Origin: Xenococcaceae cyanobacterium MO_188.B32
GTDB taxonomy: Bacteria > Cyanobacteriota > Cyanobacteriia > Cyanobacteriales > Xenococcaceae
Length of the DNA: 34,418 nt
Reading direction: 5' to 3'
NCBI GenBank assembly: GCA_030065635.1
Contig: JASJDJ010000074.1
Span: forward strand, 1-34,418
Positions 8,299-22,639 of this stretch are shown here, piece after piece. Both the position numbers and the translations under genes were made by a program. The first letter of the stretch is position 1. Each line of letters starts with the position of its first letter. Under the pieces are notes generated by a model. The model saw only the letters and a program-made list of their open reading frames with translations, was not told the origin of the DNA and did no database searches.

Positions 8299-8329
8299 TT
8301 AGCTATTAGCTATTAGCTATTAGCTATTA
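8299..8329. repeat. Heptanucleotide tandem repeat TTAGCTA x4
   Basis: Four perfect in-phase copies of TTAGCTA, followed by TTA. This is of the STRR heptamer type described in cyanobacteria. The same heptamer recurs at 32449-32465 and, with variants, at 12835-12860. Confidence 0.85.
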
Positions 8330-8342
8330 TCCCTTCGGGTTC

Positions 8343-8383
8343 GGGCGCGTTCCCTTGCGTCTTACGCCGACGCGGGGTCGCCC
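8343..8383. repeat. REP-like imperfect palindrome
   Basis: The nested arms are GGGCG (8343-8347) with CGCCC (8379-8383) and GCGTC (8357-8361) with GACGC (8369-8373). It is preceded by CCCTTCGGGTT. It is much more G/C-rich than its surroundings. A similar CCCTTCGGGTTC-led palindrome interrupts the ribosomal cluster at 19240-19325. Confidence 0.6.
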
Positions 8384-8528
8384 TCACTTTTAGTTTTGGT
8401 TAATCGAGGTGTTTTTTTGATTTGTTGACCTGAGCAAAATTTACTTTTGCGCATAGGTCTAATCTAATTAAGGACGTTCCAGGGAACGTAACTACAAACC
8501 CCAAACTCATATAGATACGGTTTATTTC

Positions 8529-18269: not shown

Positions 18270-18352
18270 CTATTTAACTTTTTTAAGAGTAAGAAGAAAA
18301 ACCTATTTCTTACTCCATTGACAACGAACAACTAAGCAATTCATCAATAACC

Positions 18353-19180
18353 ATGGGTATTCGTTCTTTTAGACCATACACCCCAGGGACTCGTCAAGCG
18401 ACAGTTTCCGATTTTGCGGACATTACCAAAAGCAAACCCGAAAAATCTCTCACCAAATTCAAACACAGTGCCAAAGGGCGCAACAATCGTGGTGTAATTA
18501 CCAGTCGCCGTCGAGGTGGCGGACACAAACGTCTCTATCGCCTTATTGACTTTAAGCGGAATAAACTCAATGTTCCTGCTGAGGTAATCGCGATCGAATA
18601 CGATCCTAACCGCAATGCTCGTATTGCCCTAGTGCAGTATGAAGATGGAGAAAAACGCTACATTCTCGCTCCCTTGGGAATCAAAGTAGGCACGACTATT
18701 ATTTCTGGCCCCGATTCTCCCATCGAAGTAGGTAACGCTCTACCCTTAAGCAAAATTCCTTTAGGGGAAACCGTGCACAATGTGGAACTGAAAGCAGGAA
18801 AAGGCGGTCAAATTGTGCGAGCTGCTGGTACGGCTGCCAAAGTAATGGCCAAAGAAGGAAATTACGTTACTATCGGTCTTCCCTCCAAAGAAGTACGAAT
18901 GGTAAGGAAAGAATGCTACGCCACTATCGGGCAAGTAGGTAACGTAGAAGCCAGAAACCTAAAATTAGGAAAAGCAGGTAGAACCAGGCATTTAGGTAGA
19001 CGACCACAAGTACGAGGTAGCGCGATGAACCCCTGCGATCACCCCCATGGAGGTGGTGAAGGACGGGCACCAATCGGTAGAAGTGGCCCTGTTACTCCTT
19101 GGGGTAAGCCAGCTTTAGGGATGAAAACCCGCAAGAAGAAAAAACAAAGCGATAAACTTATTGTTCGCCGTCGTCGTTAA
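18353..19180 (+). CDS. rplB: 50S ribosomal protein L2 (uL2)
   Basis: One of the largest and most conserved 50S proteins, needed for subunit association and peptidyl-transferase activity. The 275-residue length is normal. It includes [20 protein letters not shown], the SH3-like middle, and the C-terminal [18 protein letters not shown] that contains the conserved functional histidine. It ends in the usual basic [13 protein letters not shown] tail. A 208-bp repeat-filled gap separates it from rpsS, unlike the tight spacing of the rest of the cluster. Confidence 0.97.
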
Positions 19181-19388
19181 AGTCAAACTCAAAAAGTAGG
19201 GAGTTAACGAGTAGGGGGTAGGTACTAACTAGTAACTACTAACCCTTCGGGTTCAGCAACAGCGAGTGGGGGAAACCACGCCAGTTCCTACAACGGAGGA
19301 CACCTCCGCAACGGACTGGCTCCCCAAGACCGCGATGCTTCACTACTAACTACTAACTCAATTACTGTTTACTGTTTACTAAAATACT
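19181..19388. repeat. Heptamer repeats and REP-like hairpin inserted between rplB and rpsS
   Basis: TAACTAG-TAACTAC (19226-19239) is followed by an AACCC-TTC-GGGTT hairpin. A long hairpin comes next: GGGGA with TCCCC (19269-19273/19321-19325), GCCAGT with ACTGGC (19280-19285/19315-19320), and CGGAGG with CCTCCG (19294-19299/19303-19308, loop ACA). CTACTAACTACTAACT follows, and TTACTGT-TTACTGT-TTACTAA (19362-19382) ends just before rpsS. No gene is present. It could act as an attenuator, terminator or RNA-stability element inside the operon. Confidence 0.7.
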
Positions 19389-19667
19389 ATGAGTCGTTCA
19401 CTCAAAAAAGGTCCGTTCATTGCCGATAGCCTTCTCACCAAAATAGAGAAACTAAACGCCAATAACAAAAAAGAAGTAATTAAAACTTGGTCGAGAGCTT
19501 CGACAATTCTGCCCCAAATGGTAGGACATACTATTGCCGTACACAATGGTCGTCAGCACATCCCCGTGTTTGTTACCGAACAGATGGTGGGACACAAATT
19601 AGGGGAATTTGCTCCTACTCGCACTTTTAAAGGTCATTCAAAGAGTGATAAAAAAGCTCGGCGATAA
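19389..19667 (+). CDS. rpsS: 30S ribosomal protein S19 (uS19)
   Basis: Small-subunit head protein that contacts S13 and the A-site finger of the large subunit. The 92 residues start [16 protein letters not shown] and include [20 protein letters not shown] and [18 protein letters not shown], the full family core. It starts right after the rplB-rpsS repeat block, with three TTACTGT-type heptamers ending seven bases before its ATG. I see no strong ribosome site, which is unusual for this cluster. It is followed after 25 bp by rplV. Confidence 0.97.
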
Positions 19668-19692
19668 AAAATAATTTTTATTAGATAAAACT

Positions 19693-20049
19693 ATGGCAAT
19701 AGATACTACAAATGAAGTAAAGGCGATCGCACGCTACATTCGTATGTCTCCTTCTAAGGTGCGACGAGTATTAGACCAAATCCGCGGTCGTCAATATCGA
19801 GAGGCACTAATTATTCTTGAATTTATGCCTTATAAAGCTTGCGATCCAATTCTGAAAGTCTTGCGTTCTGCTGTTGCCAACGCAGAACATAATGCAGGAC
19901 TCGATCCTACTACCCTGGTCGTTAGTAAAGCTTTTGCCGATGGAGGCCCTACTCTAAAACGTTATCGCCCCAGGGCACAAGGACGAGCATACCAAATTCG
20001 TAAACCAACTTGTCATATAACTGTAGCTGTTGCTCCAGAAGCAGAATAA
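19693..20049 (+). CDS. rplV: 50S ribosomal protein L22 (uL22)
   Basis: Large-subunit protein that forms part of the exit-tunnel constriction; its beta-hairpin tip is a macrolide-response site in other bacteria. The 118-residue product has [18 protein letters not shown] at the N-terminal helices and the hairpin region near [20 protein letters not shown], then [10 protein letters not shown]. There is no insertion or deletion in the hairpin relative to what I recall of the family. rpsC follows after 59 bp. Confidence 0.97.
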
Positions 20050-22526: not shown

Positions 22527-22561
22527 ACTGACTAGTCGTCAAATCAGAATTACAGCAAGAA

Positions 22562-22596
22562 TAACTGTTAACTGATAACTGACAACTAATAACTGA
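22562..22596. repeat. Heptamer repeat TAACTGA x5 between rplX and rplE
   Basis: Five in-phase heptamers TAACTGT, TAACTGA, TAACTGA, CAACTAA, TAACTGA lie in a 113-bp gap in the ribosomal cluster. This is STRR-type sequence. No gene is present in the gap. Confidence 0.8.
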
Positions 22597-22639
22597 TTAA
22601 CCCCTGACCAAGCCCAGGGAAAGAAAAAACAGTAAGAAA

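Follow-up and report, generated by a model that had tools for sequence, protein, structure and literature searches.

Short tandemly repeated repetitive (STRR) heptamers occur in cyanobacteria, and small dispersed repeats (SDR) are defined by many dispersed copies of a unit of tens of nt, frequent embedding in tandem heptamer arrays, nested insertions, compensatory stem changes and a coherent cyanobacterial subgroup of hosts. The SDRs of Nostoc punctiforme and its relatives were reportedly described by Elhai et al. in 2008. PMC3733652 and PMC3116915 cite that work, and in PMC4390886 SDR5 is reported to insert precisely into the HIP1 octamer. PMC3733652 also describes GTAG-tagged cyanobacterial REPs (GTAG-12, -15 and -16), many of the A. 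variabilis GTAG-15 dimers lying inside longer palindromes, so that palindromes within palindromes are already published. Heptamer direct repeats of the TAACTGA type are internal to ribosomal-protein operons of Beggiatoaceae, and PMC4679880 considers that any operon insertion seems potentially disruptive and that a mobile element is perhaps better placed inside a ribosomal operon than in its promoter.

Here we describe a 100-nt composite of three nested hairpin modules in the rplB–rpsS spacer of the S10 operon, located in a 34,418-nt stretch of DNA (the window) from Xenococcaceae cyanobacterium MO_188.B32. The composite resembles the SDRs in its units of ~27 nt, its compensated hairpin stem, its tandem heptamer arrays, its nested insertions and its many copies, and differs from them in its Xenococcaceae-like host and its site inside the S10 operon, the likeness being drawn from the general description of SDRs rather than from the letters of SDR1–SDR8. 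By that description, the composite appears to be an inserted repeat of the same kind as the SDRs of Nostoc. Head-to-tail degenerate heptamers flank it on both sides, as in STRR tracts, except that the heptamers here are the landing site and not the element. Like the GTAG-tagged REPs, as far as the available text of PMC3733652 describes them, it is a short intergenic palindrome, but it carries no tag at its stem foot and no transposase gene beside its sampled loci; in contrast to the Beggiatoaceae repeats, as presented in the accessible part of PMC4679880, it comprises a nested hairpin element. Among the literature matches listed, none dealt with this element within a ribosomal operon. The case is a clear one of a tiny non-coding repeat within a ribosomal operon that is essential, at a point where the congener has another palindrome, and it offers a clean example, in an unusual location, of very small mobile DNA whose kind is poorly understood.

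The spacer and its nested modules

The two genes bordering the insert, which we take to be rplB and rpsS from their position and from the operon order in relatives, are separated by 208 nt (Table 1). The gap length, the fold and the listing of heptamer runs (19223–19243, 19342–19358 and 19362–19380) confirmed the initial annotation in its picture of a 208-nt spacer with a strong nested hairpin and heptamers. The core at 19243–19343 folded at −39.5 kcal/mol (z = −3.08), with 1 of 200 dinucleotide shuffles as good, and a whole 241-nt stretch gave z = −2.09, with 6 of 200 shuffles as good; direct and inverted repeats were both present within 19195–19245. The spacer had been taken in its entirety for an insertion, which held for the inserted repeat-type hairpin but not for the full length. 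The extra DNA covers only about 19195–19357, while the first few bases of the spacer (before 19195), the TTACTGT run and the remaining rpsS leader are common to the congener, and the leader is partly common to other family members as read from their spacer sequences. The last heptamers, previously counted with the insert and placed seven bases before the rpsS ATG, thus belong to the older leader, and their run ends 8 nt before the ATG.

Table 1 Features in and around the rplB–rpsS spacer, in window positions
Feature	Positions	Strand	Basis
rplB (ribosomal protein uL2)	18353–19180	+	open reading frame, homologues in relatives
Degenerate heptamer array AGTAGGG AGTTAAC GAGTAGG GGGTAGG, converging on next array	19195–19222	+	read from letters
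Left heptamer array TACTAAC TAGTAAC TACTAAC, abutting hairpin element	19223–19243	+	heptamer-run listing
Composite of nested hairpin modules M1{M2{M3}}, 100 nt	19244–19343	+	copy comparison, fold
M1 5′ part: CCTTCGGGTTC tag and stem arm AGCA	19244–19258	+	tag search, copy comparison
M2 5′ part, ACAGCGAGTGGGGGAAACC	19259–19277	+	copy comparison
M3, inserted in 3′ arm of apical stem of M2, innermost hairpin CAACGGAGGACACCTCCGCAACG	19278–19321	+	copy comparison
M2 3′ part, CCCCAAGACCGCGA	19322–19335	+	copy comparison
M1 3′ part: stem arm TGCT and TCAC end	19336–19343	+	copy comparison
Right heptamer array TACTAAC TACTAAC, in register of left array	19344–19357	+	register comparison
Older rpsS leader including TTACTGT run, common to congener	19358–19388	+	congener comparison
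rpsS (ribosomal protein uS19)	19389–19667	+	open reading frame, homologues in relatives

In the relatives, the gap ranged from 19 to 208 nt with a median of 40 (30 loci, window included), and the window's was the longest. Cyanobacteria at large varied, with gaps of 15–257 nt and a median of 56 among 47 loci (2 of them with non-cyanobacterial record titles), and of up to 308 nt in a sample of 101 operons, namely that of the window and those of 100 genomes, each from a different genus hand-picked from those available. The start of one locus in the spacing survey (L026/L126) is off by one base.

Comparison of copies by eye resolved the composite into M1, consisting of CCTTCGGGTTC and a stem arm at one end and a stem arm and TCAC at the other, M2, which is 27 nt long and has a GGGGG/CCCCC stem between GCTCAT and AAGACCGC, and M3, a module bearing the CAACGGAGGACACCTCCGCAACG hairpin. 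Of the 35 distinct instances of the unnested M2 core, 32 had this length. At loci L015 and L220, M1 encloses a plain M2 lacking M3; in the window, L187 and L242, M3 lies within the 3′ arm of the apical stem of M2, the whole M1{M2{M3}} composite being found at L187 in an AATTAGC array, at L242 in an AAGTAGC array, and in the window exactly between two TACTAAC heptamers. The M2 arm of the window is divergent and occurs otherwise only in L018 among 424 loci. An additional M1 sits within the 3′ arm of M3 at L223 and L254, and other inserts occupy about the same point of M2 at L150, L153, L154 and L155. The difference between two congener loci with near-identical flanks, L261 and L267, is a nested module that stands in place of a few bases and thus was not simply added. 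Across the strain's own genome and the congener, nesting reached three or more levels. The core is almost certainly a dispersed hairpin repeat of nested build. M1 was also often observed within an outer palindrome, TCACCGTTACACCGC...CGTAAAACGACGGTG or GGGCGAACGGC...CGTTCGCCCCTAC (L205, L229 and L290; L261, L264 and L267), which adds a further level of nesting.

Dispersed copies, heptamer register and stem pairing

The strain's own genome, a draft of 6.39 Mb in 281 contigs, contained at least 61 matches to the gap sequence at E ≤ 10, many of them short; the search scored 40 of 131 candidates, which makes this count a lower bound, and a second copy search scored 40 of 67. The best five matches outside the window, among the 40 candidates scored, covered 77–118 nt at 88–96% identity. 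The M1 tag CCTTCGGGTTC occurred 60 times in the own genome and 68 times in the congener, compared with 2 and 5 occurrences, respectively, of the reversed pattern. Modules were read at 58 distinct own sites (60 places) and 59 congener sites (68 places), nine congener places being left out (C152, C311, C363, C364, two in C369, C370, C374 and C378); a simple rule for the right end gave no end at 16 of the 58 own sites, and its plainly wrong ends at L214, L223 and L259 were kept. A query of M1{M2} matched 33 of 80 genomes, own included, namely 25 of the 27 genomes of the own family (all except G006 and G012) and 8 of 53 from other families of the order. It also matched five Nostocales plasmid records (Nostoc, Tolypothrix, Fischerella, Halotia and Brasilonema), and phage records held no match to the element. 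Several M1{M2} copies have similar flanks, some of them at contig ends, and seemingly ride in two longer repeats of the own genome (L133–L138 with L142, and L139–L141 with L148). The window itself holds a second M1-type hairpin, CCTTCGGGTTC...CCCTCAC, at 8299–8387 (M1 at 8332), immediately 3′ of a TTAGCTA heptamer array.

Comparison of the rplB–rpsS spacing in related genomes supported the absence of the insert from relatives. The spacer of the congener is 89 nt long, with a similar start and the same ACTACTAACTCAATTACTG... leader, and lacks the composite; at the same point it holds a different palindrome whose minus strand reads GTAGGG after one base. Among the S10/spc spacers of the 101 operons, the M1 tag or at least two module motifs were found solely in the rplB–rpsS spacer of the window. 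For two further own copies (the C210 and C131 copies), the orthologous place in the congener has no element and contains heptamer-like DNA; the flanking heptamer-like DNA differs there too, and these are messy rather than exact empty sites. At a third site, orthologous to L003, the two flanks fall on different contigs. Judged from these alignments, the composite appears to be a lineage-specific insertion and not a conserved operon device, with the comparison involving one genome of this species and a congener, where absence means gain here or loss there. At 2232–2287 of the window a palindromic unit of 28 nt, TAGGGGTCAACGGCTGTTGACCCGTACA, stands twice in tandem, and by eye this unit resembles the palindrome in the rplB–rpsS spacer of the congener.

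The heptamers on either side of the element were compared at 40 own and 43 congener sites that had a recognised end and 14 nt of sequence on each side. Own copies agreed in their flanking 7-mers at a mean of 3.88 of 7 positions compared with 2.79 after permutation, a value reached in 0 of 2000 permutations, and the signal returned at an offset of 7 (3.83 versus 2.77; 0 of 2000). For every offset from 1 to 6, the observed mean was matched by no fewer than 73 of 2000 permutations. The window copy (L195) is among the perfect cases, its flanking 7-mers being identical at 7 of 7 positions and in register. The congener gave a weaker signal: 2.23 versus 1.74 permuted at offset 0 (2 of 2000), 16 of 2000 permutations reaching the observed mean at offset 7, and a value at offset 6 (2.26 versus 1.82; 3 of 2000) about equal to that at offset 0. 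Agreement at 5 or more of 7 positions was observed in 18 of the 40 own copies and in 6 of the 43 congener copies; nearly all of these lie in heptamer arrays, the other copies having no such matching 7-mers. The array embedding characteristic of SDRs is thus present in the own genome and weaker in the congener, alongside the many dispersed copies of short units and their nested insertions.

Compensatory stem changes, also part of the SDR definition, were found for M2 only and on related copies. The 32 aligned unnested copies with 12-nt flanks, which are those of the 35 instances that share one length, had 97.1% of cells paired across the 13 pairs of the M2 stem compared with 86.3% in shuffles, and 51 double-change cells compared with 12.1 in shuffles and 3–7 in slid controls; the copies are related, and cells do not represent independent events. 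Five pairs had changes on both sides, not beyond chance (58 of 500 shuffles reach that), and the count of further pair types was barely beyond shuffles (11 of 500). Because the M2 copies are related, this covariation indicates matched arms and not which cause keeps them so: selection, the mode of module insertion or quasi-palindrome correction could each do it.

Origin of the insert and rival explanations

We consider it likely that a small dispersed hairpin composite inserted within the TACTAAC tract of the rplB–rpsS spacer and was tolerated by the operon. A TACTAAC heptamer tract would have lain, or arisen, ahead of the old rpsS leader, and the three-module composite, each module within the arm of the next, would then have inserted between two units of that tract. 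No gene lies in the element, and any movement would depend on machinery encoded elsewhere; the mRNA would bear a stable stem-loop in the rplB–rpsS spacer. The copies of the repeat, their nesting, their register with the heptamers, the orthologous sites free of the element and the matched arms of the M2 stem were observed directly; from these we infer that the element moved, instead of having been lost in the congener, that it is neutral and that events ran in this order.

An assembly artefact, namely a repeat misjoined into this spacer in the draft, is almost certainly not the explanation. The many contigs of the draft and the presence of the 100-nt composite at least three times would favour such an error, but the join lies mid-contig, keeps the heptamer register exactly and is flanked by rplB and the conserved rpsS leader, and the M2 arm sets the window's copy apart from the others. 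A REP or REPIN of the RAYT (Y1 tyrosine transposase) kind, already doubtful, is very improbable. The hairpin, its intergenic position and its many copies would suit this identity, which the initial annotation had implied in calling the hairpin REP-like, and Y1_Tnp genes are present in the genome (21 matches, and 10 in the congener); the congener's palindrome at the same spot begins with GTAG on its minus strand and is the more REP-like of the two. However, no GTAG or CGTC stands at the stem foot of the composite, a single minus-strand GTAG being inside M3, and none of the 20 Y1 loci sampled (14 from the own genome and 6 from the congener, with up to ~1.5 kb on each side) contained an M1, M2 or M3 motif, so that the REP-like label was not upheld. 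Looser motifs of 6–7 nt did appear near these 20 loci (AAGTCGG in 7 and GTAGGGK in 8, counted without a chance control). The modules nest within arms and sit in heptamer arrays, also contrary to a REP, and any target duplication, judged by eye at those nested junctions that allow it, is no longer than about one base, which together with the module-free Y1 loci makes a poor fit to a RAYT REP or an ordinary DDE MITE.

Selection might instead have kept the composite in the S10 operon as a regulatory stem-loop that tunes rpsS and the downstream genes through pausing, partial termination or RNase processing, a reading we regard as improbable. It draws on the strong fold of the core, on the presence of a palindrome of unrelated sequence at this place in the congener, and on strong folds (z ≤ −3) in 13 of 61 rplB–rpsS spacers of at least 50 nt versus 51 of 443 other S10/spc spacers (Fisher one-sided p = 0.031, uncorrected, for one of 16 spacer kinds compared in 86–101 operons each). 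At z ≤ −4 this enrichment vanishes, with 6 cases at rplB–rpsS, 6 at rpsC–rplP and 5 at each of three others (101 operons), and heptamer arrays were commoner in rpsC–rplP (21 of 99) than in rplB–rpsS (15 of 101). The sequence, moreover, is a genome-wide dispersed repeat, and none of the other 100 operons in the sample contains the composite. No terminator-like site (a G+C-rich stem followed by a T run) was found in 18300–19700, nor any terminator or sigma-70-type promoter on either strand of 19181–19388, and a search of Rfam for a regulatory RNA gave nothing within the gap, its two matches being at chance level (E = 0.6 and 0.98) and located elsewhere.

The CCTTCGGG tag is almost invariably preceded by C (L214 and L215 differ), and this C may be the first base of the element itself, so that a target preference is not deducible from it. 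Some repeats of the SDR kind, Elhai et al. (2008) are said to have proposed, moved via RNA. We tentatively suggest, at a low probability, a combinatorial self-nesting system whose units would insert either among heptamers or within the apical stem of another unit, in its 3′ arm, keeping a foldback with matched arms and leaving no clear target duplication; its dedicated mover, neither a RAYT nor an ordinary DDE transposase, would use RNA or folded single strands as substrate and would occur in lineages far removed from Nostoc. The 60 and 68 tagged copies, the filled and element-free orthologous sites and the three or more nesting levels make the question of movement testable.

Spacers and start sites in the S10 operon

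Among the 16 spacer kinds, rplB–rpsS had the most spacers of at least 100 nt (20 of 101) and also the highest number of folds at z ≤ −3. Long spacers, heptamers and strong folds recurred at the uncoupled joints of the S10/spc region and were almost lacking at tightly coupled ones, a pattern that we read as tolerance with a small chance of function. An early comparison had raised a convergent rplB–rpsS hairpin in unrelated cyanobacteria (14 of 27 versus 3 of 22 for rplW–rplB, at z ≤ −3 and at least 70 nt); given the counts in the wider sample and the lack of excess at z ≤ −4, it is not claimed.

The initial annotation had also expected a ribosome site where the last heptamers lie. By a simple AGGA/GGAG/GAGG rule, however, Shine–Dalgarno (SD)-like motifs preceded rpsS in 11 of 70 loci compared with 62 of 70 for rpsC (L021–L067, L072 and L101–L130, 7 duplicate loci left out), and in 34 of 101 operons compared with 79 of 99 for rpsC. 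Since such motifs seldom precede rpsS, no ribosome site need have been lost, and the insert may be tolerated because the rplB–rpsS joint is not translationally coupled and the rpsS start is seldom SD-dependent. A regulatory function of the insert is unlikely. The predicted stem-loop most likely has a nil to modest effect on operon expression, through RNA stability, processing or pausing, and the influence on read-through or processing that had been anticipated for a hairpin of this strength is at most possible. For annotation, this case advises caution, as long hairpins in ribosomal spacers are not necessarily regulators.

Heptamer arrays were observed elsewhere in these operons. The rplX–rplE spacer of the same operon (22527–22639, 113 nt) contains an ATAACTG-type heptamer array and folds with z = −4.1. 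Inverted pairs of heptamer arrays, quite different from those of the window, were seen in ten other cyanobacterial rplB–rpsS spacers (L038, L042, L050, L052, L053, L054, L329, L330, L333 and L411).
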